Shown here one piece after another: positions 1,731 through 13,622 of a stretch of DNA of 14,404 nucleotides. Source of the stretch: an uncultured beta proteobacterium. Its GTDB lineage: Bacteria > Pseudomonadota > Gammaproteobacteria > Burkholderiales > Burkholderiaceae_C. A model generated the notes under the pieces. That model made no database searches, was not told where the DNA came from, and saw only the letters and a list, made by a program, of their open reading frames with translations. The DNA lies in the NCBI GenBank assembly GCA_903927495.1, contig CAIYNH010000283.1:1-14404 (forward strand), given 5' to 3'. Made by a program: the position numbers and the translations under genes. The first letter of the stretch is position 1. Every line of letters starts with the position of its first letter.

Positions 1731-3659
1731 ATGGCCCTTGTCAAGAAATCTGTCAGCAGCAATTCCAGTTCCACCGTTGCAGACGCGCCCGGTGGACGTG
1801 CGTCTGCCAGCGCTGCACGTGATGCCGAAGTTCAGCGCAAACGCGCCCGTACCCTGGCCAAACAACAGCAGGCGGCTGAGCGTATTGCAGCGGCCACTGG
1901 CCAGATGGCTTCGGGCATCGCCGAAGCTTCTTCGGCGGCTGAGGAACTTAAACGCGCCGCCGACCAGATCGCTACTGGTGCCGAAGAAGCCTCGGGTGCA
2001 GCACAAGAATCTTTGGCGGCCTTCAAGCAGGTCGAGGGCTCGATTGCCCGGCAATTGCAAAATGCGGATCTTTCTCGGACCAAGGCTGAAGCAGCTCAAA
2101 CCCTGGTCGCCACCACCAGTGCCGATGTGGCCGCTACCATTACCAACGTGGGTATCTCGGCGCAGCGCCAGGCCGCATCAGTCGGCATGGTAGCTGAGCT
2201 GGAAAAGCAGGCCGCCAACATTGGTGACATCGTCAAAGCCGTGGCGCGAATTGCCGATCAGACCAATCTGCTGGCCCTGAACGCCGCCATTGAAGCTGCC
2301 CGCGCCGGTCAGCATGGCAAGGGTTTTGCTGTGGTCGCCGACGAGGTCCGCACCCTGGCTGAAACGTCTGAGAAAAGCGCCAAGCAAATTCAGGATTTGG
2401 TGGGCCAAATTCAACAAGAAGTCAAAGTGATTGCCGACGGCATTGGCCAGTCTGCCAAAACCGTTGAAGTGGAAGTTGAAAACGGCAAGGTCATCACCCA
2501 GCAGCTTGAGCAGATTCGCCTCGATGCCATTGAAATCGTCAAGGGCGTGGGCGAAATCGCCGTCGGCGCGCAGCAGTCACAAACCGCATCGCGCCAAGCC
2601 TTGAAAGGCTCAGAAGACATCGCCGCTGCCGCGCAAGAGCAGTCTGCTGCAGCTGAAGAAGCTGCAAAAACTGTAGCGGAACAAGCCCAGGCACTGGCCA
2701 CCAGTGAGCAAACGGCCCAACATTTATCAGAGTTGTCGGAGGACCTGAAAAACTCCACTGACGTAGCCAAGAGCGCTGAAGAAGTGGCATCTGCTGCCGA
2801 AGAGTTGTCTTCAGCGGTGCAGGAGATCAGCCGTTCGGGCTCGCAGATCATGACCGCCATTGACCAGATTCGTCGGGGTGCCGATGTGCAGTCGGCCGGT
2901 TGCGAGGAGTCCTCAGCGGCCATCACCCAAATCGAGCGTGGTGCCCAGATGGCCATGCAACGCGGTACCGCCAGCGCTGAAAAGGTGGGTGCTATCCGCA
3001 CATTGCTGGCCACCAACAAGAATTCTGTAGACTCACTTATTACCAATGTGCTGGCTTCGGCGGAGGCCAGCAAGGTCAGTATCAAGCAGGTCAAAGAGCT
3101 GGAGTTGGTGTCACGCCGAATTGACAAAATCGTCGATGCAATCACCACAGTTTCGATTCAGACTAATATGCTGGCCGTCAATGGCTCGATTGAAGCTGCC
3201 CGAGCCGGTGAATTTGGCAAAGGCTTTGTTGTGGTTGCCACCGACATTCGCAATCTGGCGCAGGACTCCGCAGAAAATGCCGACCGTATCAAGGACCTGG
3301 TCAAAGCGGTGCAAGACCAAATTGGCATTGTGGGGCGTGACCTCGACGAGATCGTGGCCACTGCCTTGTCTGAAGTTGAAAAAGCCAAGGCCACGACGAT
3401 TAACCTGGTGACGATTGAAACCAACATTGCGGATGTCGAAAAAGGGGCCAGTGAAATCTTGGCTGCGGCCAACGAAATTGGTGCAGCCGTGGCACAGGTC
3501 AAGCGAGGCGTGGAGCAAATTTCTGCTGCTGCACAGGAGGCTGCCAAAGCCTCAGACGAAGCTGCCGCCGCCGCCAAGCAACAGTCACAAGGGGCAGAGG
3601 AACTGGCCAGCGCAATCGAAGAAATATCTTCTCTGGCCGACGAGCTGCAAAGCGCCTGA
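1731..3659 (+). CDS. soluble methyl-accepting chemotaxis protein with two signalling domains (DosM-like)
   Basis: This 642-residue receptor has no signal peptide, transmembrane segment, PAS, GAF or HAMP-like sensor. After a basic, Ser/Ala-rich N-terminus (RKRAR at 37-41) it is almost wholly Ala/Glu/Gln-rich coiled coil. It has two complete MCP hairpin tips. The first (about 174-212) has [17 protein letters not shown] and the second (about 474-512) has [17 protein letters not shown]. They are exactly 300 residues apart, and the whole protein after about residue 43 reads as two 300-residue units without gaps. Possible methylation stretches flank both tips (AEEL near 70 and 356, AAAQE near 299 and 599). 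There is no C-terminal xWxxF CheR-docking motif. GGAG at 1721-1724 supports ATG 1731. A double-hairpin receptor is known from Vibrio cholerae DosM, which stabilises cytoplasmic arrays. A like role here is inferred. Confidence 0.93.
1857..3656 (+). repeat. internal tandem duplication, two 900-base units within the soluble MCP gene
   Basis: Residues 43-342 and 343-642 align at a constant offset of 300. Matched anchors are DQI at 78/378, ITNV at 137/437, QTN at 177/477, NxxIEAARAG at 184/484, EVE at 248/548 and AAAQE at 299/599. At DNA level the tip sequences around 2291 and 3191 are nearly identical and exactly 900 bases apart. Most of the rest has diverged, so the duplication is old. Confidence 0.85.
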
Positions 3660-3675: not shown

Positions 3676-5232
3676 ATGACCAGTGAAACAACTGTAGAAC
3701 CGTCTGCGGTTGACGACATCAGCGTTGTCGCCCAGGCATCTGACACGCGTCAGTACGTGACCTTTATTGCGGGCGACGAGGTCTTCGCGGTGGAAATGGC
3801 ACCGGTGCAGGAAATCATCCGTGTGCCCAGCGTGGTGCGGGTGCCACTGTCGCCACCCACCTTGAACGGCTTGGCCAATCTGCGTGGCAAAGTGCTGCCG
3901 ATTGTGTCGCTGCGCCGGGCGCTCGGCTTTGTCGAGCGTGACTCCGATGATGCCTCGCGCGCGGTGGTGATTGACCTGGGCCAACCCTTGGGCTTTGTGG
4001 TGGACCGGGTGGCCAGCGTGGTCGGTGTGGATGCCAGCAAGATTGAAGGTGTTGAAGGTATTCGGGGCACGGTGAATACCGAACTGCTGACCGGCCTGAT
4101 CAAAGACATCGGCGGGCACGCCATGGTGATGATTCTCAATTTCGAGAAACTCATCGCTCAGGAGTTTGCGCAGATTGCGGCACTCAGCAGCAAGCAGGGG
4201 ACAGTGGCAGCGCAAGGTCTGGGCAAGAGCGCCGGGGATGAGTCGTTGCGTGCCATTGACGCCGAACTGCACTTGGTCAGTTTCGATGTGGCGGCTCAGG
4301 AATATGCCATTGCCATTGAAGATGTGCAGGAAATTGTGCAAATTCCAGAGCAAATCGTGCAGGTGCCACATGCCCAGTCGCATGTTTTGGGGGTCATGAC
4401 CCTGCGCAACCGTTTGTTGCCCCTGGTGGCACTGCGTCGCATGTTTGGCTTGAGTGAGCAAGATGCCAATGAACAAAGCCGCATTGTGGTGGTGGCCATT
4501 GGCGGGGCCTCAGTGGGTATAGTGGTGGACAACGTCAACGAAGTGCTGCGGGTAGCCAAGCGTGACGTGGAAGCCATGCCCAGCATGCTGGCGCGTGACG
4601 GCGACATGGCAGACATTACCGACATTTGCCGCCTCGACAAAGGCCAGCGGCTGGTGTCCATCATTTCAACGGCAAACTTGTTCCGCCACTCGGCGATAAA
4701 AGAGGCATTGACCACAGTGAATGCAAATACCGGTAAAACAACTGACGCTAAATCGGGTTCTGACGGGATTGCGGATGACGAACAAGTGGTGGTGTTCCGT
4801 CTGGGCGCTGAAGAGTTTGGGGTGCCGATTGACAGCGTGCAGGAAATTGTGCGCGTGCCACAAACCCTGACCCATGTGCCCAAAGCACCGACTTCGGTGG
4901 AGGGTGTCATTAACCTGCGTGGCAGCGTGCTGCCGGTGGTGGACTTGCGCCGACGCCTGGGGCTTGACACCATTGCCCGCAACGACGGTCAGCGCATTGT
5001 GGTGTTTTTGATTCGCGGTGTGCGTACCGGCTTTATTGTCGATGCCGTGGCAGAAGTGCTTAAGGTGCCACGCCATTCCATTGAGCCCGCGCCCAGTCTG
5101 TCGGCTGAGCAGTCAACCCTGTTGGCCCGCATGGCCAACCTGGAGAAGCAAAAACGCATGTTGCAACTGATTGATCCGGTCTATTTGTTGGGTGAGGGCG
5201 AGTTATCTGGCATGGTTGGGTTGGCGGCCTGA
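3676..5232 (+). CDS. cheW: chemotaxis adaptor with three CheW domains
   Basis: The 518-residue cytoplasmic protein is three CheW domains in a row, at about 25-165, 196-340 and 368-512. They are joined by short linkers (about 170-195 and 341-367). Each has the receptor/CheA-binding CheW core. NLRGKVLPI (68-76) and NLRGSVLPV (413-421) are canonical, while the middle domain has TLRNRLLPL (242-250). CheW normally has one domain and links MCP tips to CheA P5 in hexagonal arrays, so a three-domain form could bridge several positions. The gene starts 16 bases after the double-tip receptor gene, with a GAGGG ribosome-binding site. It is the only free CheW in the window, so it presumably serves both receptors. 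Separate functions for the three domains are an inference. Confidence 0.95.
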   Translation: MTSETTVEPSAVDDISVVAQASDTRQYVTFIAGDEVFAVEMAPVQEIIRVPSVVRVPLSPPTLNGLANLRGKVLPIVSLRRALGFVERDSDDASRAVVIDLGQPLGFVVDRVASVVGVDASKIEGVEGIRGTVNTELLTGLIKDIGGHAMVMILNFEKLIAQEFAQIAALSSKQGTVAAQGLGKSAGDESLRAIDAELHLVSFDVAAQEYAIAIEDVQEIVQIPEQIVQVPHAQSHVLGVMTLRNRLLPLVALRRMFGLSEQDANEQSRIVVVAIGGASVGIVVDNVNEVLRVAKRDVEAMPSMLARDGDMADITDICRLDKGQRLVSIISTANLFRHSAIKEALTTVNANTGKTTDAKSGSDGIADDEQVVVFRLGAEEFGVPIDSVQEIVRVPQTLTHVPKAPTSVEGVINLRGSVLPVVDLRRRLGLDTIARNDGQRIVVFLIRGVRTGFIVDAVAEVLKVPRHSIEPAPSLSAEQSTLLARMANLEKQKRMLQLIDPVYLLGEGELSGMVGLAA

Positions 5233-5253
5233 GTTGCCTCAGGTGTGATTTTC

Positions 5254-6342
5254 ATGATCAAACTGCTCGTCGTTGACGACTCGGCGCTGATGCGCCGCCA
5301 ACTCACCCTGTTGTTTCAGGCTGAGGGCGATTTTGAAATCCGCCAGGCCCGAAACGGGCAGGAAGCGGTGGATGAAAACCGCTTGTTTCAGCCCGACGTG
5401 GTGACGCTGGACATTAACATGCCCGAGATGGATGGGATTACCGCTTTGTCGCTGATCATGGCCGAGCGTCCAGTGCCAGTGGTGATGGTCTCGTCACTCA
5501 CTGAAAAATGTGCATTGGCCACCTTTGAGGCGCTGAACCTGGGGGCGGTGGACTACGTGGCCAAGCCTGGAGGCACGATTTCGCTCACGCTCGATCAGGT
5601 CAAGGTGGACTTGCTGGCCAAAGTGCGCTCAGCCGCCCGTGCAAAGCTGGGTAAGAGCCGCACACCAGCCAAACCCGCTGGCTCTGTGCAGGGTTTGCGC
5701 CAGCGCATTCAGCAGGAGCGTGAAACTGCTCAGCGCAGCGCAGCCACTGCGCCGGGTGCGTTCAGCGAAGGGTTGCTGATCATTGGCGTTTCCACCGGTG
5801 GCCCACGGGCTTTGGAGCAAGTTCTGCCAGTTCTGCCAGCCAATTTCCCGTGGCCGGTGTTGGTGGCGCAGCATATGCCGGGCAGTTTTACTGGCCCATT
5901 TGCAGCGCGCCTGAATAGTCTGTGCGAGCTTGAAGTGGTGGAGGTGACACGGCCCATGCCGGTGCAGACCGGTACGATTTATATTGGCAAAGGTGGAGCC
6001 GACATGGTAGTGACGCGCCGTGGCAGTGTGCTCACTGTCTTGCCCAAGCCGGAATCGCCGCTGCACTTGTGGCACCCGTCTGTGGAACTATTGGCGCGCA
6101 GTGCGCTGGAGCACGTCAAACCGCATCACCTGGTGGGCGTGATGCTGACCGGCATGGGTTATGACGGTGCCGATGGCTTTACCGCCATCAAAACAGCTGG
6201 TGGCCGCACCATTGCCGAATCTGAAGAAACCGCGGTCGTTTTTGGTATGCCGGCGGTGTTGATTGAAAAAGGCGGGGCCTCTTTGGTGGTGCCCCTGGAC
6301 AAAGTGGCAGCACAGGTCAAGGCCTGGGCATTGCGTGGATAA
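5254..6342 (+). CDS. cheB: chemotaxis response regulator protein-glutamate methylesterase CheB
   Basis: The 362-residue enzyme removes methyl groups from receptor glutamates (and deamidates glutamines) during adaptation and is activated by CheA phosphorylation. The receiver domain (1-120) has D8-D9, the phospho-acceptor D53 and K104. After a linker rich in R, Q and A (about 125-170), the methylesterase domain (172-360) shows the catalytic triad: S180 in GVSTGGPRAL, H207 in AQHMPG and D304 in LTGMGYDGADG. The spacing matches that of the enterobacterial enzyme. ATG 5254 is chosen because it lies about ten bases from an AGG and begins right at the receiver fold. A GTG at 5245 is possible. It lies 21 bases after the CheW gene. 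Confidence 0.96.
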   Translation: MIKLLVVDDSALMRRQLTLLFQAEGDFEIRQARNGQEAVDENRLFQPDVVTLDINMPEMDGITALSLIMAERPVPVVMVSSLTEKCALATFEALNLGAVDYVAKPGGTISLTLDQVKVDLLAKVRSAARAKLGKSRTPAKPAGSVQGLRQRIQQERETAQRSAATAPGAFSEGLLIIGVSTGGPRALEQVLPVLPANFPWPVLVAQHMPGSFTGPFAARLNSLCELEVVEVTRPMPVQTGTIYIGKGGADMVVTRRGSVLTVLPKPESPLHLWHPSVELLARSALEHVKPHHLVGVMLTGMGYDGADGFTAIKTAGGRTIAESEETAVVFGMPAVLIEKGGASLVVPLDKVAAQVKAWALRG

Positions 6343-6353
6343 GGACACTCACC

Positions 6354-6977
6354 ATGGCATTGATCAAATCCTCGCGCTCTGCAGATTCTGCAAATCCCGC
6401 CCGCGAGCAGGAGCGCGACTGTGCGAGCTTGGAGAAAAACCTGAGTAACCCCAGCTCGGCAACCCGGCGCTGGGCAGCGCGAGACCTGGTGAATTGCCCC
6501 GGCAGCTCCGCGGCCCTGGTTGCTTGTCTGCGCAGCGAGGTCGAGCCTTCAGTGCGGGAAGTCATTTTGACCACCTTGACCCGCTTGGGTGACAGCACGG
6601 CGGTGACGGGCCTGGTGGAGTGCATGCGCAGTGAAGATGCCGCCTTGCGCAATGAAGCCATCGAGGCCATGAAACTGTTGCCCGATGCCGTGGCCCCCAT
6701 CATGCGCGACTTGCTCGCTGATGCAAATAGCGATATGCGCATTTTTGCCGTGAACATTTTGGAGTCCCTCAAGCACCCTGATGTCGAACTGTGGCTGCGC
6801 GAGGTGATCGAGCGTGACCCTCACGTGAATGTCTGCGCTACAGCGGTGGACTTGCTCGGTGAAGTCGGTTCCGAAGGCGCGCTGGAATCTCTGCGGCACC
6901 TGAAAGCACGTTTTGCGGGTCAAACCTACATCCAGTTTGCAGCTGATCTGGCCATCAAACGCATTCTGGAAGATTGA
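6354..6977 (+). CDS. HEAT-repeat protein of the che operon
   Basis: The 207-residue, probably cytoplasmic protein is built from about six helical HEAT-type repeats (about residues 24-205). Recurrent patterns include SVREVILTTLTRLGD, ALRNEAIEAMKLL, DMRIFAVNILESL and HVNVCATAVDLLGEVG. Such repeats form a curved solenoid that binds other proteins, and no catalytic motif is visible. It sits between CheB and CheR, with an AAGGA site (6341-6345) eight bases before ATG 6354 and gaps of 11 and 8 bases to its neighbours. This strongly suggests a partner role in adaptation or array assembly. It could be a scaffold for the methylation enzymes or a receiver-binding protein. Function is unknown; the fold assignment is fairly secure. 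Confidence 0.85.
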   Translation: MALIKSSRSADSANPAREQERDCASLEKNLSNPSSATRRWAARDLVNCPGSSAALVACLRSEVEPSVREVILTTLTRLGDSTAVTGLVECMRSEDAALRNEAIEAMKLLPDAVAPIMRDLLADANSDMRIFAVNILESLKHPDVELWLREVIERDPHVNVCATAVDLLGEVGSEGALESLRHLKARFAGQTYIQFAADLAIKRILED

Positions 6978-6985
6978 CCTGTCCC

Positions 6986-7822
6986 ATGGCTCTACCCAGC
7001 ATCAGCGAAGAAGACTTCCACAAGTTCCGGGAGTTTTTCTACCGTAAGACCGGTATTCAGTTTGAGGAGTCCAAGCGCTACTTTGTTGACAAGCGGCTGC
7101 TTGAGCGCATGGCTGCGACCAACAACGCCCTGTTCAGAAGTTATTTCACAATGTTGCGATTTCAAGCCACGGGTGAGGAATTGCAGGTACTGACCAACCT
7201 GATGACGGTCAACGAGACCTATTTTTTCCGCGAGGAATACCAGTTCAAGTGCCTGGTCAATTCGATCCTGCCGCATCTGGTGGAACGTAAACGTGACCAG
7301 GGGCCGATTCGTATCTGGGTGATACCGTCATCGTCGGGTGAAGAGCCTTATTCAATTGCCATTTATTTGCTTGAAAAATGGGCTGGCATTCATCACTATG
7401 ACGTGGAGATTATTGCCTCGGACATTGACACCAAAATTCTGGAGCAGGCCAAACGCGGGTTTTACTCAGACCGCTCGGTTGGGCAGATGCCCCTGCCTTA
7501 TTTGCAAAAGTACTTTCGCAGTTCCCGTGATGGACATCAGATGTGTGACGACTTGCGTGGGGCGGTGGAGTTCACCCGCGTCAATTTGTCAGAGCCTGCC
7601 GACACCCGGCCCTACCGCAATTTTGATGTGGTGTTTTGCCGCAATTTGTTGATTTATTTTGATGATTTATCGCGCAAGACAGCAGCGGAGACTTTTTTTG
7701 ATGCACTCAAGCCGGGCGGCTTTATTTGTCTTGGACATTCCGAGTCGATGAGCCGCATCTCATCTTTGTACAAGGTGGTCAAGTTCCCGGAAGCCATCGT
7801 TTATCAGAAGCCCACGGAGTAG
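6986..7822 (+). CDS. cheR: chemotaxis protein-glutamate O-methyltransferase CheR
   Basis: The 278-residue enzyme transfers methyl groups from S-adenosylmethionine to receptor glutamates. An all-helical N-terminal CheR domain (about 6-60) is followed by the methyltransferase fold. Family hallmarks are TVNETYFFRE (74-83), GEEPYS (118-123), ASDID with D146, FCRNLLIYFD (217-226) and GGFICLGHSES (244-254). The glycine motif reads IPSSSGEEPYS, where many CheRs have a Cys-Ser/Thr-Gly form. There is no tetratricopeptide or other extra domain. ATG 6986 is chosen. A TTG at 6974 is in frame but would overlap the upstream stop and has no proper ribosome-binding spacing. It lies 8 bases after the HEAT gene, so translational coupling is likely. 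Confidence 0.95.
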   Translation: MALPSISEEDFHKFREFFYRKTGIQFEESKRYFVDKRLLERMAATNNALFRSYFTMLRFQATGEELQVLTNLMTVNETYFFREEYQFKCLVNSILPHLVERKRDQGPIRIWVIPSSSGEEPYSIAIYLLEKWAGIHHYDVEIIASDIDTKILEQAKRGFYSDRSVGQMPLPYLQKYFRSSRDGHQMCDDLRGAVEFTRVNLSEPADTRPYRNFDVVFCRNLLIYFDDLSRKTAAETFFDALKPGGFICLGHSESMSRISSLYKVVKFPEAIVYQKPTE

Positions 7823-7827
7823 AAACA

Positions 7828-8199
7828 ATGAAACGGATTTTGATCATTGATGATGCTGCCACGGTACGCATGTACCACCGAAGCATTTTGCAAGAGGCGG
7901 GCTATGAGGTTGAAGAGGCCATCAACGGCATGGAAGCGCTTGAGAAAGCCCTGCAAAGCCAGTTTGATTTGTACTTGGTGGACGTGAATATGCCCAAGCT
8001 CGATGGTTATGGTTTTTTGCGGGAACTGCGTCTTCAGGACATGGCGCAGGCGCCAGCCATCATGATTTCGACCGAAGCCTCGGGCGCTGACCGCCAGCGG
8101 GCCTATGCTGCCGGTGCCAACTTGTACATCGTCAAACCCATTCAGCCAGAGCAGCTGCTGGCGCCAATTGCCCTGCTGCTGGGGGAGTTGAACCCATGA
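7828..8199 (+). CDS. cheY: CheY-like response regulator (first of two in the operon)
   Basis: The 123-residue protein is a single receiver domain. Key residues are D8-D9, the phospho-acceptor D52 in YLVDVNMPKLDG, S81 (a Ser where CheY usually has Thr) and K103 in IVKPI. GGAG at 7816-7819 lies eight bases before ATG 7828. The CheR stop is 5 bases upstream, and the gene overlaps cheA by four bases (ATGA), which indicates coupled translation with the kinase. It is a likely phosphoryl acceptor of this CheA. Whether it acts on a motor, on another output, or as a phosphate sink cannot be told from sequence. Confidence 0.93.
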   Translation: MKRILIIDDAATVRMYHRSILQEAGYEVEEAINGMEALEKALQSQFDLYLVDVNMPKLDGYGFLRELRLQDMAQAPAIMISTEASGADRQRAYAAGANLYIVKPIQPEQLLAPIALLLGELNP

Positions 8200-10946
8200 A
8201 CGCCTTGCTGGAGCAGTTTTTAAGTGAATCCAGAGAAGCCCTTCAGGGCATTGGCGAGAAGCTGATGGCGCTCGAAAACGCCCCGGATGACCAGGAACTG
8301 ATGACGCAACTGTTCCGTCTGGTGCATACCTTGAAGGGCAACAGTGGGCTGTTTGAGTTTCCTGAGATGACCCGAGTGTTGCATGCTGGGGAAGACTTGA
8401 TGGATGCCGTGCGCAATGGGCGGGTTCACTATTCACAAGGTTTGGCCGACTGTCTGCTCGATGCCATGGACTTCGTGGGCATGCTGTGCGACGACGTTGA
8501 GGCTGAACGTCCTACCCCGGGAAGTGTCGCCGGTGACGCGGCTGCGCTGGCGCGCTCATTGCGAGCCCTGATTGGCTCCGACGCTGAGGCTTCCGAAGCA
8601 ACTGATCCTGTGCTCTCCAAGCAGACTCTAGGGCCTGAAGCAGTCAGCGTCAATCCGACTGCTGCGCCGGATCGTGCCTGGCTACTGCGCGTGCCGGAAG
8701 TCGTGCGGCTGGCTGCCTGGCGTGCCGCGCAAACGGCTGCGCCCTTGTTCTGGGTGCGGTATCGGCCGACTGAAGAGTGCTTTTATCAGGGTGAAGACCC
8801 GCTGCATCAGGCTAAGCTGACCCCTGGCTTGTTGTGGGGGGGTATGGCCGCCCGCTCAGACTGGCCGGCGTTGAATGAGCTCGATGCCTACCGTTGCATG
8901 CTCGATTTTGATTTGCTGGTGAGCACCTCGAAAGTGGATATTGAGCAGCATTACCGCTATGTGCCCGATCAGATCGAAATTCTGAACGTCGCTGCCCTGG
9001 CCCTGGTGCTGCCGCAAGGTGACCCCAACGGCGGCCCGGTTTATGAAGATTTTGTGGCCGATGCGCTGGGTTTTCTGGATCGTAACGATCTGGTGGGATT
9101 GGGCCGGGCGGTGCGCAGCATGCTAGAGCTCTCCAGCAGTGCGCTGTGGTTGTCCTCGGATTTGCGCTGGATTGCGGCGCTCATGGAATCGCCGTCGGTG
9201 CATCTGCAAGCGGTGCGCCTGCTGATCGAATCGCTGCGTACTCTGACACCGCCAGATTGGGCTGCAATGCCCATTGATAAAGCACAGGCTGCTCCTAAAA
9301 TAAAAGCAACTAAATACGCTACAGCAGCCCCGGTGGTGCGGCCCATGACTAGCCCCGAGGCACCATTGGACGCGCGCACCCAGGCCATTGCCAATGTGCT
9401 GGAGGTGCAGCGTGAAATTCTCGCGTTGCCTGACGATGCCGCCTGGCTGGCCGGGCGCATCAAGGCGGCGGTGGCCTCATTGGCGGGATGTCTGCGTGCC
9501 AGTGGCCGTGCCGGCGAAGAAGCTGGGCTGACTACAGCGGCCAGTGCGGCCTTGCAGTGCGGCAGCGCAGCGCCCTTGGCGCACTGGTTGGCACTGGCGT
9601 TTCCCGACACGCGAGAGCCTGAAAACTTAAGCTTGCCCCCAAGTGCCCCTGCCAGCGCGCTGCCAAGCGCGCCTGTTGTCACCGCAACGAATGCTACCTT
9701 GGATGTCAGCGAAGCTGCTGATGCCCCCGAGCAGATTGGCCGCATGAACCGTCGTGCAGAAGATGCCAACAGCGCCAAAACGCTCAAAGTTGATCAGGTC
9801 AAGGTGGACCGGTTAATGAACCTGATTGGTGAAATGGTGGTGGCTAAAAACGCAATTCCGTACCTTGCCAACCGGGCCGAAACCGTGTTTGGCGTGCGCG
9901 AGTTGTCGCGGGAGATCAAGGCGCAATACGCGGTGATCAACCGCATCTCTGAAGAAATGCAGGATGCCATCATGCAGGTGCGCATGATGCCGGTGTCGTT
10001 TGTGATGCAACGCTTTCCGCGCCTGGTGCGCGACACCTCTCGCAAACTCGGCAAAGAGGTTAACTTGGTGCTTGAAGGCCAAGAGACCGCTGCCGACAAG
10101 AACATTATTGAGTCACTGGGTGACCCGTTGGTTCACATTGTGCGCAATAGTCTGGATCACGGGCTTGAGATGCCTGAAGTGCGGCTGGAGGCCGGCAAGC
10201 CGCCAATCGGCACTCTAAAAATAATAGCTAAGCAGGAATCTGATCGAGTCATCATCGAGATCATTGACGACGGCAAAGGCATTGACCCGGTGGTCATCAA
10301 GAAAAAAGCCTACCAAAAAGGTCTGATCGACGAGGCCATGCTGGAGCGCATCAGCGACCAGGAAGCTGTCAACTTGGTCTTTGCCGCCGGATTCTCCACT
10401 GCTGAAGTGGTTTCCGATCTGTCAGGCCGCGGGGTCGGCATGGATGTGGTGCGCACTGCGGTGGAACGGGTGAACGGCAGCATTGCGCTGGAGAGCGTCA
10501 AAGGGCAGGGCACACGCCTGCGTTTGTCCTTGCCGCTGTCGATGGCGGTAACCAATGTGATGACGATCGCCTCTGACGGCCAGATGTTTGGCGTGCCGAT
10601 GGATATGGTGGTGGAGACCGTGCGCGTGCCGATCGTCAATGTGCGCACCATCAAACGGCGTCAGGCCACCGTGCTGCGCGGTCGCATCGTGCCCTTGATG
10701 TCACTCAATTCGTTACTGGGCCTGGCCGCGCCGCAGCTGTCCAATGATGATGATGAGATGGCGGCTCTGGTGGTGCGTGTGGGTGAAGAGACTGTTGGCT
10801 TGTTGGTTGATGAATTTCATGGCACTGCCGACATCATTTTGAAACCTCTGGGTGGTGTGCTTGGGCACTTGAAAACCTATTCCGGATCGGCGCTGATGGG
10901 TGACGGATCAGTGCTGATGGTGCTTAACCTCAAGGAGATGTTTTGA
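8196..10946 (+). CDS. cheA: chemotaxis histidine kinase CheA with an enlarged central region
   Basis: The 916-residue kinase phosphorylates the operon's receivers and CheB. The N-terminal HPt domain (about 1-105) has the phospho-accepting H44 in VHTLKGNS. Residues 160-350 form a folded region (WVRYRPTEECFYQGEDP, FRC-like AYRCMLDF, YRYVPDQIEILNV) in place of a recognisable enterobacterial P2 domain. It is followed by a helical stretch (390-470) and a Pro/Ala-rich linker to about 525. The P3 dimerisation helices (about 528-595) contain KVDRLMNLIGEMVV. The P4 ATPase has the N box HIVRNSLDHGLE, G1 DDGKGI (691-696), F box FSTAE (733-737) and G2 GRGVGMDVV (744-752). The C-terminal P5 CheW-like domain covers 780-916. 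It is longer than typical CheA (about 650). Two AT-rich rare-codon islands lie at residues 364-378 and 672-681. Confidence 0.96.
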   Translation: MNALLEQFLSESREALQGIGEKLMALENAPDDQELMTQLFRLVHTLKGNSGLFEFPEMTRVLHAGEDLMDAVRNGRVHYSQGLADCLLDAMDFVGMLCDDVEAERPTPGSVAGDAAALARSLRALIGSDAEASEATDPVLSKQTLGPEAVSVNPTAAPDRAWLLRVPEVVRLAAWRAAQTAAPLFWVRYRPTEECFYQGEDPLHQAKLTPGLLWGGMAARSDWPALNELDAYRCMLDFDLLVSTSKVDIEQHYRYVPDQIEILNVAALALVLPQGDPNGGPVYEDFVADALGFLDRNDLVGLGRAVRSMLELSSSALWLSSDLRWIAALMESPSVHLQAVRLLIESLRTLTPPDWAAMPIDKAQAAPKIKATKYATAAPVVRPMTSPEAPLDARTQAIANVLEVQREILALPDDAAWLAGRIKAAVASLAGCLRASGRAGEEAGLTTAASAALQCGSAAPLAHWLALAFPDTREPENLSLPPSAPASALPSAPVVTATNATLDVSEAADAPEQIGRMNRRAEDANSAKTLKVDQVKVDRLMNLIGEMVVAKNAIPYLANRAETVFGVRELSREIKAQYAVINRISEEMQDAIMQVRMMPVSFVMQRFPRLVRDTSRKLGKEVNLVLEGQETAADKNIIESLGDPLVHIVRNSLDHGLEMPEVRLEAGKPPIGTLKIIAKQESDRVIIEIIDDGKGIDPVVIKKKAYQKGLIDEAMLERISDQEAVNLVFAAGFSTAEVVSDLSGRGVGMDVVRTAVERVNGSIALESVKGQGTRLRLSLPLSMAVTNVMTIASDGQMFGVPMDMVVETVRVPIVNVRTIKRRQATVLRGRIVPLMSLNSLLGLAAPQLSNDDDEMAALVVRVGEETVGLLVDEFHGTADIILKPLGGVLGHLKTYSGSALMGDGSVLMVLNLKEMF
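9287..9329. repeat. 43-base AT-rich element with 7-base terminal inverted repeats inside cheA
   Basis: GGCTGCT (9287-9293) and AGCAGCC (9323-9329) are perfect inverted repeats. They flank a 29-base AT-rich core (CCTAAAATAAAAGC and onward) in an otherwise GC-rich gene. The insert reads through in frame as a linker (APKIKATKYATA) using rare codons such as ATA. It looks like a small inserted repeat unit. AT-rich dispersed repeats with a similar CTAAAA...AGC core occur, to my recollection, in Comamonadaceae genomes. Confidence 0.5.
10211..10236. repeat. second AT-rich island in cheA, related to the 9287 element
   Basis: The bases CTCTAAAAATAATAGCTAAG give the rare codons CTA AAA ATA ATA in a conserved strand of the ATPase domain (residues TLKIIAK). 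The core CT(A)n-TAA-AGC resembles the element at 9291-9306. No flanking inverted repeat is visible here, so the relation may be coincidental. Confidence 0.3.
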
Positions 10947-11188
10947 TGACCATGGAATTCAAAAAAAAGCTGGCGTTGCTCAGTGGCACGGTGGGCGTGG
11001 AAGACGCTGAAAAACTGTTGGAGTGGCTGCAAACCAAACCCGCCGCCAGGGTTGACTTGTCGGCTTGCACGCATATTCACCCGGCCAATATCCAGGTCCT
11101 GCTGGCAGCCGGTACCACCGTCAGCGCCTGGCCAGCCGATGCCGATCTGGCCCGCTGGCTGCAATCGGCGCTGGTATCGAACAAATAG
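10946..11188 (+). CDS. small STAS-like protein
   Basis: The 80-residue protein starts at ATG 10946, sharing one base with the cheA stop (TGATG), nine bases after AGGAG. The sequence has the features of a minimal STAS-type fold: an N-terminal strand (KLALLSGTVGVEDAEKLLEWL), a core strand-loop VDLSACTHIHPANIQVLL carrying Ser at the usual phosphorylation position, and a C-terminal helix (DADLARWLQSAL). STAS proteins act as phospho-switches or anti-sigma antagonists. Small proteins of this look sit beside cheA in some proteobacterial clusters. There is no transmembrane segment or signal peptide. The position between CheA and CheY-2 suggests a role in array assembly or output. The STAS call is moderate, since the domain is short. 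A further ATG at 10952 is less likely as start. Confidence 0.7.
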   Translation: MTMEFKKKLALLSGTVGVEDAEKLLEWLQTKPAARVDLSACTHIHPANIQVLLAAGTTVSAWPADADLARWLQSALVSNK

Positions 11189-11205
11189 AATTTAAGGAGT
11201 TTTTA

Positions 11206-11580
11206 ATGGCTAAAACAATTTTGATCGTCGATGATTCAGCCACCATGACGATGAGCGTGAAATCCACGCTGCAAATGAACGGCTTTGTGGTGCAAACAGC
11301 CGGTGATGGCGTGCAGGCACTGGCCAAGCTCAAGGCTGGCTTGAAGCCTGACCTGATCATCACTGACATCAACATGCCCAACATGGGCGGGCTGGAGTTG
11401 ATCAAGAACGTCAAGGCGCTGCCAGGCTACCGCTTTGTGCCGATTTTGACGCTCACCACCGAAAGCGATTCCAAAAAGCGCGACGAGGGCAAAAAGCTCG
11501 GTGCCACCGGCTGGCTGGTCAAGCCGGTGTCGGGGGTGGATCTGGTCAAGGTCATCAAACAGGTGGTGCCCGGTGCCTGA
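11206..11580 (+). CDS. cheY: CheY-like response regulator (second of two in the operon)
   Basis: The 124-residue receiver has D9-D10, the phospho-acceptor D54 in LIITDINMPNMGG, T84 in ILTLTTES and K106 in WLVKPV. It is closer to canonical CheY than the first receiver in the operon, with DDSATMTMSVK after the first strand. This form is common among CheYs encoded beside cheA in many proteobacteria. A strong AAGGAG (11194-11199) lies six bases before ATG 11206, better than that of most genes here, so it may be made at higher level. It lies 17 bases after the STAS-like gene. It may be the main output receiver, with the other as modulator; that is inference. Confidence 0.94.
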   Translation: MAKTILIVDDSATMTMSVKSTLQMNGFVVQTAGDGVQALAKLKAGLKPDLIITDINMPNMGGLELIKNVKALPGYRFVPILTLTTESDSKKRDEGKKLGATGWLVKPVSGVDLVKVIKQVVPGA

Positions 11581-11616
11581 AATGGCGGGCCAGCCAATCA
11601 CTTTTTGGAGGTGGTG

Positions 11617-12858
11617 ATGTTCAAGTCACAACCCAGAGTTTTTCCGTCTCCACTTGGCATTGCCGCCATTGCCATCACCAGCACTGTGATGGTTTGGCTG
11701 GCGCCATGGCTTCATGAGGTGGTCTTTGCAGGGATGGGAGTGGACTTGCGCTGGCAGGTTGCCTCAGCATTGATGACGGTATTTGCCGCGTCGTCCCTGC
11801 TGGCGCTGGTCTTCAAGTGGTTCTCCAAACGGGAGTCGCTGGATGACGAGTGGCTGATGCTGACGAAGCACATGCCGCGCCAACAGGTGGTGCAAGAGGT
11901 GCGCGAAGTGGCACCTTATCTGGATCTGATGAGCAAGCAGCTTGATGGTGCCGTCAAGGAAACCGAGCACGGTGTGCTGGGCCTTATCACTTCGCTCAAT
12001 GCGATCCATCAGGTGTCTGACCAGCAATTGCGGCGCATCAATGCCTCGGAAGAAAGCGGCTCCGAACTTGCTGCGGCACTGCAGGAAAAGGTCTTGGTGG
12101 ACAAGCAGCTCGGGTTGATCCTGCAAATGTTTGTTGACAAGCAGCAGCAGGACGTGGCGGTGCACCTGGGGCGCATCAAGCGGCTGCAAGAGGTCAAGAG
12201 CCTGAGCACGCTGGTGGCCGATATTTCACAGGTGGCCAAACAAACCAATATTCTGGCCATCAATGCGGCGGTGGAAGCGGCCCGAGCCGGTGATGCCGGT
12301 CGTGGCTTTGCAGTGCTGGCGGCAGAAATCAGGGAGCTGTCGAACCGTACGGCCGGTGCTGCGGTCAACATTTCACTCAAGATCAAGACCGCCACCGAAG
12401 GTATTGACGAAGAGCTGAAAAATGCCACCGATGTAGACGAGCGAAACACGGCCTCTGGCAGCATGCGCCAGGTGATTGCCGACGTGGACGAGATGCAGCA
12501 GCGCTTTTCGGCCGCATCCCAAAGCCTGATGGAGATCATTGAAAGCGTCAAGACCGGGCACCAGGACATTGTGACGGGTCTATCGGAAGCCTTGGGGCAA
12601 ATTCAGTTCCAGGACGTGATTCGCCAGCGCGTGGAGCAGGTGCAAAAAGCACAGCAAGAACTTAATGAACATCTGCAATGCATGGCCGACCAATTGGTGG
12701 ACAAACCCTGGGACCCACAATCCATGGTCACGCTGCGCCAGCGGCTTGAGCAACAGGTGGCCAGCTACGTGATGCAAAGTCAACGCGAAACCCATCAGGC
12801 GGTGACCGGCACAACGTCGACCAAAACCAACGACCGACCCAATATTGAGTTGTTTTAG
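11617..12858 (+). CDS. membrane-anchored methyl-accepting chemotaxis protein without a periplasmic sensor
   Basis: The 413-residue receptor has two hydrophobic segments near the N-terminus (about 12-36 and 47-69), separated by only about ten residues, so there is no ligand-binding domain outside the membrane. The cytoplasmic part includes a short MCP signalling hairpin whose tip is [17 protein letters not shown] (209-225), followed by [18 protein letters not shown]. Towards the C-terminus [16 protein letters not shown] (328-343) is a signature seen in a subgroup of small MCPs. The tail has no xWxxF motif. GGAGG (11607-11611) is five bases before ATG 11617. A TTG at 11605 is in frame but overlaps that site. 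It may sense an intracellular or membrane signal, or anchor the array to the membrane. Confidence 0.92.
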
Positions 12859-12863
12859 CACCT

Positions 12864-13622
12864 ATGGCACGCACACTGGTCATTAGCAACCGCAAGGGCG
12901 GTTCCGGCAAATCTTCGACCTCAGTCAACGTCGCGGCTGAATTGGCGGCACAGGGACAACGGGTTTTGCTGATTGACTTGGACACCCAAGGCCACTGCGC
13001 TGTTGGTTTGGGTATCAAGCCGGCGCGTGATGCCGCCACCGTGCATGGTTTTCTGGCCGGGCGGAGCAGCTTGCGCCAGGCGCTGGTCGAGTCGGCTTGG
13101 CCGGGGCTGCACCTGATACCGGCGGACCCCTTGTTTGAACACGGCGGGGTTGGTGAGAGTGAGTCCAAGCTGCGCGATGCGCTGGCCGCTGAAGGGCTGC
13201 TGGCTGACTACGACACTATTGTGCTCGACACACCGCCGTCGCTGGACGGCTTGTTGCTCAACGCGCTGTGCGCCGCAGACCGGGTGCTGGTGCCGTTTGT
13301 GCCGCATTACCTCTCGGGCGAAGGCGTACGTCAACTGGCCCGGATTTTGTTCAAGGTGGCCAGCCGTGGTTTGAACGACCGGATCAGAGTGCTGGGTTTT
13401 TTGCCAATCATGATCGACCTGCGCATTGGTCAGCACCGCGAGGTCAACGCCAGCCTGTCACACCAGTTTGGTGCGGCACGTTTGTTGCCGGGCATTCGCA
13501 CCGACATCAAGGTGGCAGAGGCGTTCGCCGTGGGTAAGCCGGTGCGCGAGCATGCGCCCAACAGCCGTGCTGCAGCCGATTACGCTGCGGCCGTAAAGTC
13601 GCTTGAAACCCTTTGGGTTTGA
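12864..13622 (+). CDS. ParA/MinD-family ATPase of the che cluster (probable array-positioning protein)
   Basis: The 252-residue protein is a ParA-type P-loop ATPase. It has the deviant Walker A motif RKGGSGKSS with signature K11 and K16, the Walker A' strand LLIDLDTQGH (35-44) and Walker B IVLDTPPSLDG (119-129). It lacks an N-terminal helix-turn-helix, so it is not a plasmid or chromosome-partition ParA of the type that binds its own promoter, and there is no parB next to it. The start is 5 bases after the MCP stop and 2 bases precede the next gene. ParA homologues in che loci position arrays: PpfA segregates the cytoplasmic cluster of Rhodobacter sphaeroides, and Vibrio ParC places polar arrays. 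That role is inferred here from context. The basic N-terminus of the soluble MCP is a candidate partner. Confidence 0.92.
   Translation: MARTLVISNRKGGSGKSSTSVNVAAELAAQGQRVLLIDLDTQGHCAVGLGIKPARDAATVHGFLAGRSSLRQALVESAWPGLHLIPADPLFEHGGVGESESKLRDALAAEGLLADYDTIVLDTPPSLDGLLLNALCAADRVLVPFVPHYLSGEGVRQLARILFKVASRGLNDRIRVLGFLPIMIDLRIGQHREVNASLSHQFGAARLLPGIRTDIKVAEAFAVGKPVREHAPNSRAAADYAAAVKSLETLWV

Follow-up and report, generated by a model that had tools for sequence, protein, structure and literature searches.

A DosM-type double-signalling receptor in an F9-type chemosensory cluster: co-variation suggests that its two hairpins pair in one four-helix bundle

The window studied here, a 14,404-nucleotide stretch of DNA from an uncultured beta proteobacterium, encodes a soluble MCP of 642 residues with two signalling domains (dosM; positions 1731–3659 on the forward strand, as are all features given below). 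Going by its signature genes and their order, the locus is a full, not a partial, F9-type chemosensory cluster, and by sequence the receptor is a DosM. Its kind is already known, and the window protein a new member of it, because the F9 class is recognised by a DosM accompanied by a concatenated triple CheW (PMC9321776; here and below, papers are cited from those parts of their text that were accessible). We judge it probable that this DosM is an array receptor adapted by CheB and CheR, its hairpin 1 lying on hairpin 2 in a bundle that arises either by fold-back of one chain or in an antiparallel dimer. It would most likely serve a cytoplasmic two-layer array as a soluble core receptor that has no sensor, with CheA and the triple CheW making up the baseplates.

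The receptor was delineated from its open reading frame, Pfam, the alignment of the protein with itself and the alignment of its homologues. Pfam found MCPsignal (PF00015) in two stretches and nothing else at E ≤ 0.01, and a simple scan detected no long hydrophobic or TM-like run in the protein. Thus, no sensory or membrane domain was found, as the preliminary description of this DNA had said. It had also read the protein as 42 residues plus two units of 300, with tips exactly one unit apart and a gap-free self-alignment over nearly the whole chain, and these readings hold. Tip 1 starts at Q177 and tip 2 at Q477, a distance of exactly 300 residues or 900 bases, and the ungapped self-alignment at an offset of 300 scored 463 (342 pairs, 32% identical), compared with 166 for the runner-up among 450 offsets (293, one heptad away from 300).

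Hairpin 1 comprises residues 43–341 (1857–2753; AlphaFold2 helix 25–341, PF00015 stretch 149–297) and bears a canonical tip 1 (residues 176–193; 2256–2309), whereas the tip 2 borne by hairpin 2 (residues 345–642; 2763–3656) is a variant one (residues 476–493; 3156–3209); both tips were placed from the homologue alignment. Two AlphaFold2 models predict a helix break halfway between the tips, at a junction with the residues STD (342–344; 2754–2762). Rfam gave no match at the gathering threshold over the whole window.

Directly downstream of dosM lies cheW3 (3676–5232), whose 518-residue product has three CheW domains. It is followed by cheB (receiver and methylesterase; 5245–6342), a gene for a HEAT-repeat protein with the N-terminus MALIKS (6354–6977), cheR (6974–7822), a first cheY-like receiver (7828–8199) and cheA (8196–10946), which encodes 916 residues with Hpt, dimerisation, ATPase and CheW-like domains. 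Beyond cheA come a small STAS-like protein (10943–11188; a weak Pfam match, below the cut-off), a second cheY-like receiver (11191–11580), a membrane MCP with one signalling domain and, in the scan, two TM-like runs (11605–12858), and a ParA-like ATPase (12864–13622). The che genes and the HEAT protein were assigned by Pfam, with tblastn in addition for the HEAT protein and both receivers. The class marks of DosM are present: tandem signalling domains, the absence of a sensory domain, an adjoining triple CheW, and CheA, CheB, CheR and CheY. Among DosM homologues, 98% have no sensory domain (PMC9321776), and the role of DosM as scaffold in two-layer cytoplasmic arrays is described as apparently essential (PMC7534058, PMC9321776). 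The membrane MCP at the end of the cluster resembles VC1394 of Vibrio cholerae and is unexpected in a purely cytoplasmic array.

The suspected likeness to DosM was corroborated by the triple CheW partner and the F9-type gene order. We searched the cluster proteins by tblastn against the loci of the best 80 of 260 confirmed GTDB relatives. The order DosM-CheW3-CheB-HEAT-CheR-CheY-CheA was found in 65 of these 80 loci. Fourteen of the remaining 15 keep the order as far as their matches go, mostly on short contigs or loci, and one (L072) departs from it after CheB, with a CheA-like match (44%) directly next and HEAT, CheR and CheY matches absent. CheW3 follows DosM immediately in 79/80 loci, the exception being a 4.3-kb contig (L061). 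The genes 3' of CheA vary more among loci than the part from DosM to CheA. Between cheA and cheY, most loci with enough sequence also encode the small STAS-like protein. A ParA-like gene (>100 bits) was found in 31 of the 83 loci searched, some of them cut short, and this count does not support ParA as an obligate partner; because similar genes do occur at these loci, the ATPase may act in positioning in some lineages.

DosM homologues (E ≤ 1e-40) are also carried on 25 PLSDB plasmid records (e.g. L133, L134, L135), six of them predicted to be conjugative. The three plasmid regions examined have the F9-type gene order, and the order DosM-CheW3-CheB-HEAT-CheR can be read from the annotation of plasmids from Azospirillum brasilense, Methylobacterium currus and Methylosinus trichosporium. 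In the left halves of L031 and L030, the first chemotaxis gene set is adjoined, on the other strand, by a second, diverged set, which in L031 contains DosM- and CheW3-like matches. Two different F9 clusters (L027 and L044) lie on contigs of one metagenome-assembled genome.

The spacing of 300 residues is not due to chance, because an open full-length frame with this spacing is kept in 79 of the best 80 GTDB loci (80 of 260 confirmed relatives); in the 80th (L033) the reading frame is broken by a frame change. The search for homologues with the same 2 × 300 layout, which the preliminary description had proposed, returned a period of 300 in 341 of 343 aligned homologues, with 286 (P0028) and 304 (P0104) in the other two. 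This alignment holds 335 distinct sequences plus 8 repeats; L033, L130 (internal stop) and the copies L106, L116, L121 and L122 were left out. The period is kept in a homologue with 37% identity to the window DosM (L120), and in each of three Vibrio homologues, V. cholerae DosM itself not being among them. At the thresholds used, DosM was found in 7/274 genomes of the window's class and 8/299 of its phylum (the window's own included in both), in 2/295 genomes of the order of G536, and in 10/246 of the family of G536, one with an internal stop. In the genus Vibrio it was found in 3/227 genomes (E ≤ 1e-50). The nearest relatives of the window DosM are labelled beta-proteobacterial.

Tips 1 and 2 differ consistently across homologues. 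Tip 1 has the same 10-residue motif in 343/343 homologues, and tip 2 has LAVxG in 343/343, one 11-residue form being the commonest. Mean pairwise identity in the tip regions was 0.97 (tip 1) and 0.96 (tip 2) over 80 rows. Position 1 of the motif is D in tip 1 and I, V or L in tip 2; we take this position to correspond to F373 of Tsr, a trimer-contact residue. A tree of the tip regions was built from 101 columns and 96 rows, which covered a hand-picked set of 21 DosM out of the 343 and the 54 of 57 other MCP rows that were found. It resolved each unit as a clade of its own (100/100), so the difference between the tips is old. The lone ungrouped row within the unit 1 clade is a second pick of unit 1 of L133 itself. 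A group joining units 1 and 2 had a support of just 83/72, and one old tandem duplication behind both units is likely, though not proven, from these sequences. We infer that the tips divide the labour between them.

Co-variation in the homologue alignment points to a single four-helix bundle formed by hairpin 1 together with hairpin 2. Arms are labelled N1 and C1 for the N- and C-arm of hairpin 1, and N2 and C2 for those of hairpin 2. In the raw data, the offset d=300 ranked first, and when independent-site evolution was simulated on the same tree, d=300 again had rank 1 of 301 in 4/4 simulations. The raw peak was rejected as proof of side-by-side packing, being an artefact of similar column variability. 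Because the simulations reproduce it, it was discarded, and only null-corrected, double-centred and face-resolved tests were used, in which each residue pair was standardised against 24 simulations and each helix-by-helix block was double-centred. The effective number of sequences was ~200 for 613 columns.

Co-variation between hairpins 1 and 2 at equal depth was about as strong as that between the arms of one hairpin. The null-corrected equal-depth bands reached z 5.0 (N1C1) and 4.1 (N2C2) in the positive controls, and 4.1 (N1C2) and 5.1 (C1N2) in the antiparallel pairs between hairpins; the diagonal pairs were weaker (N1N2, 2.0; C1C2, 2.6), and 3 held-out simulations gave −1.9 to 1.6 across the same six blocks. 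The real bands were 0.313, 0.303, 0.319 and 0.231, compared with maxima of 0.098, 0.094, 0.072 and 0.065 in 12 simulations. The signal between hairpins extends from the vicinity of the tips down to the base but is uneven, C1N2 being weak in the base half (0.08, 0.12). Residues 79 and 607, at equal depth in hairpins 1 and 2, are an example of a pair with high co-variation.

The partners of a residue also tended to lie on the face that such a bundle predicts. In the face-resolved test, most own-hairpin partners were on the + face, and most partners in the other hairpin on the − face. Measured from the core, the own-hairpin angles were +59 degrees (C1→N1, p 0.17), +64 degrees (N2→C2, p 0.13) and +84 degrees (C2→N2, p 0.001), and the other-hairpin angles −78 degrees (N1→C2, p 0.001), −61 degrees (C1→N2, p 0.043) and −66 degrees (N2→C1, p 0.035), these p-values being nominal, for 12 tests on a summed score. 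N1→C1 (157 degrees), C2→N1 (−142 degrees) and all four diagonal pairs were not significant. The joint face contrast was 13.3 with MI and 10.9 with DCA, compared with depth-shifted bands that averaged −1.5 with MI (38 bands, sd 2.8, max 2.7) and −1.35 with DCA (38 bands, sd 2.06, max 3.35), and with simulated alignments, whose maximum was 2.56 in a set of 12 and 4.34 among 3 held-out ones. Scored without null correction, the signs of the contrasts agreed between a near subset of the homologues (n=227) and a far one (n=116), the own-hairpin contrasts in the far subset being near zero (0.14, 0.66). Thus, co-variation at equal depth and on specific faces argues for a four-helix bundle of hairpin 1 and hairpin 2, as such a bundle would produce it, and the two hairpins may pack into what is the standard MCP bundle. 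In the DosM literature, largely outside subscription papers and including the accessible parts of PMC9321776, PMC7534058, PMC7184735 and PMC11940527, we found no test of hairpin pairing.

The same signal could be indirect if both hairpins adapted at equal depth to the same partners without touching each other. The two tips presumably share CheW3 and CheA as contacts, and the raw peak at offset 300 did prove to be an artefact of column variability; yet the signal extends along the arms rather than being confined to the tips, the diagonal helix pairs are weaker than the adjacent ones, and own- and other-hairpin partners lie mostly on opposite faces. We therefore regard an indirect origin as unlikely, and return to pairing of hairpin 1 with hairpin 2.

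Length bears on how the chain runs through such a bundle. A helix rises by ~0.15 nm per residue, and 300 residues laid out straight would measure ~45 nm. The distance between baseplates has been reported as 35 nm, and a straight 300-residue rod is a poor fit because of this mismatch. The preliminary description had favoured a rod with its tips at opposite ends, and in this it agrees with the published view of V. cholerae DosM, for which an extended rod reaching across two CheA/CheW layers has been described (PMC7534058); the simple form of that rod is unsupported here, as the hairpins co-vary at equal depth. In a parallel extended homodimer, the plainest version of that proposal, like hairpins would pair in a polar rod of ~45 nm, with tip 1 and tip 2 in different baseplates. 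The published rod is consistent with this arrangement, and unlike tips would suit two unlike baseplates. However, it predicts no contact between hairpin 1 and hairpin 2, where face-specific co-variation at equal depth is present, and its length exceeds the reported 35 nm; the Vibrio homologues have the period of 300 as well (V. cholerae DosM not among them). A parallel homodimer is quite improbable.

Two topologies remain that pair hairpin 1 with hairpin 2: (i) a folded-back single-chain dimer and (ii) an antiparallel homodimer of extended rods. The co-variation fits both equally, because both give the same contacts; we lean slightly to (i). In (i), the chain would turn at the conserved STD break, so that the hairpins fold on each other and the unlike tips sit at the same baseplate; the conserved base would meet the opposite layer, and the two layers would be held base-to-base, possibly interdigitating, and by the N-terminal tags, with no rod running through. 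We put this forward tentatively. It is favoured by the monomer models, by the conservation of STD, by the length conflict of the rod and by its simplicity as a fusion of two subunits, C-terminus to N-terminus.

AlphaFold2 monomer models of the window protein and of a Vibrio homologue both have a helix break at the junction, whose residues are kept in 338/343 (S342), 324/343 (T343) and 328/343 (D344) homologues. Both models align across both hairpins to compact single-chain four-helix bundles, e.g. ClyA, and judged by the ends of the aligned ranges they appear folded back. Their pTM was only 0.62 and 0.59, helix bundles often give a middling Z, and an AlphaFold2 monomer run has the bias that it can place repeat 2 where a dimer partner belongs. 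Structural matches to toxins and membrane proteins were set aside as generic long-helix bundles, and no relationship is claimed. The apparent fold-back comes close to the arrangement that the preliminary description had set against its own proposal, both tips on one side of a single bundle. This does not refute the rod, because in an antiparallel dimer each end would still carry tips, and because predictions made on a monomer have the bias just described.

Topology (ii), which overlaps with our preferred explanation, would be a symmetric rod with one tip of each kind at each end, bridging equivalent baseplates. It accounts for the co-variation as well as fold-back does and agrees with the published description of DosM as a rod, but it too would span ~45 nm where 35 nm is reported, and it offers no plain reason for near-universal residues at the predicted break at mid-point. 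We consider it possible but doubtful.

In either of the two topologies with paired hairpins, DosM would probably be adapted by CheB and CheR rather than act as a passive spacer. Methylation-type E/Q pairs at heptad spacing were identified by conservation in all four arms: in the N-arm of hairpin 1 at residues 71, 85 and 92 (1941–2009), in its C-arm at 302–318 (2634–2684), in the N-arm of hairpin 2 at 350, 357, 364 and 392 (2778–2909), and in its C-arm at 595–631 (3513–3623). Pairs such as those at 85, 303, 309, 357, 617 and 630 are each present in at least 93% of homologues. The earlier suggestion that the protein is mainly structural is weakened, since these sites are conserved in all four arms and cheB and cheR are present in the cluster.

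The bundle is more conserved at its base than along most of the arms, with a mean entropy of 0.68, 0.47 and 0.54 at residues 41–60, 341–360 and 621–640; a conserved basic stretch of 17 residues (35–51; 1833–1883) lies at the base of hairpin 1. At its N-terminus, DosM has a tag, MALVKK (1731–1748), of a form common to the HEAT protein. The pattern M[AGPS][LFI][IV][KR], with V or L starts allowed, was found in 71/80 DosM and 56/73 HEAT proteins, and in 0/83 CheW3, 0/69 CheA, 0/64 STAS and 0/31 ParA. It also occurred in 25/83 rows labelled MCP2, which were left uncounted; because the commonest length there was 639, these rows were taken to include DosM as the best hit in loci without an MCP2 gene. 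Among 2031 long ORFs in the loci, 116 matched the tag, and all but five were DosM or HEAT starts already counted; the five were two DosM frames (L033, L098) and three others. The MALxK-type tag of DosM and the HEAT protein spans phyla, and the stretch next to it is variable. Our guess is that the shared tag is a common docking site at the array mid-plane.

In a trimer of dimers, the receptor subunits have two different tasks, some working at the trimer axis and others toward CheW/CheA (PMC4692393), and homodimers hide which subunit does which. If the pairing proposed here is true, each receptor 'dimer' of DosM would bear one canonical and one variant tip with separate roles, possibly one toward the trimer axis and the other toward CheW/CheA. 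Such a natural receptor, with halves in fixed partnership and unlike, conserved tips, would open the division between subunits to direct testing. The way in which two-layer cytoplasmic arrays hold together would also deserve re-examination, given a straight rod of ~45 nm and a distance of 35 nm, and side-by-side halves would mean revising the usual view, in which a simple rod separates two sensor sheets.

Among known systems, the soluble MCP of Thermotoga maritima (PDB 2ch7) matches one DosM unit over 303 residues, also by sequence; unlike DosM, it has one hairpin per chain (309 residues). The cytoplasmic receptors of Rhodobacter sphaeroides have single signalling domains, unlike DosM, and the ParA-like PpfA presumably has a role in the cytoplasmic cluster of that bacterium. 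As a ParA-like gene adjoins the window cluster, so one is found with the R. sphaeroides cluster, which forms a two-layer array with baseplates ~30 nm apart (PMC3964821).

Closer in chain layout are the engineered Tsr~Tsr and the soluble single-chain MCPs already noted in Rhodospirillum centenum, which, like DosM, join two signalling subunits C-terminus to N-terminus; one four-helix bundle from one chain, as in Tsr~Tsr, is the fold-back topology considered for DosM (PMC4692393). Tsr~Tsr works with linkers of at least 22 residues and is locked on by linkers of 9 or fewer, a point against our reading, for which its authors blame the HAMP domain (PMC4692393). In DosM, unlike Tsr~Tsr, no HAMP or sensor domain was found; it is natural and soluble, its halves have diverged, and it has a three-residue predicted break in place of a long linker.

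The closest parallel is V. cholerae DosM (VC1403, cluster I / F9; Briegel et al. 2016), which likewise has tandem signalling domains and an adjoining triple CheW, in a cluster that also holds CheA and a membrane MCP (VC1394), as the window does (PMC7534058, PMC9321776). The window cluster belongs to another lineage and adds genes for HEAT, STAS-like and ParA-like proteins, which are not discussed in the accessible parts of PMC7534058 and PMC9321776. The pairing of hairpin 1 with hairpin 2 that we propose would set this receptor apart from the simple rod described for V. cholerae.
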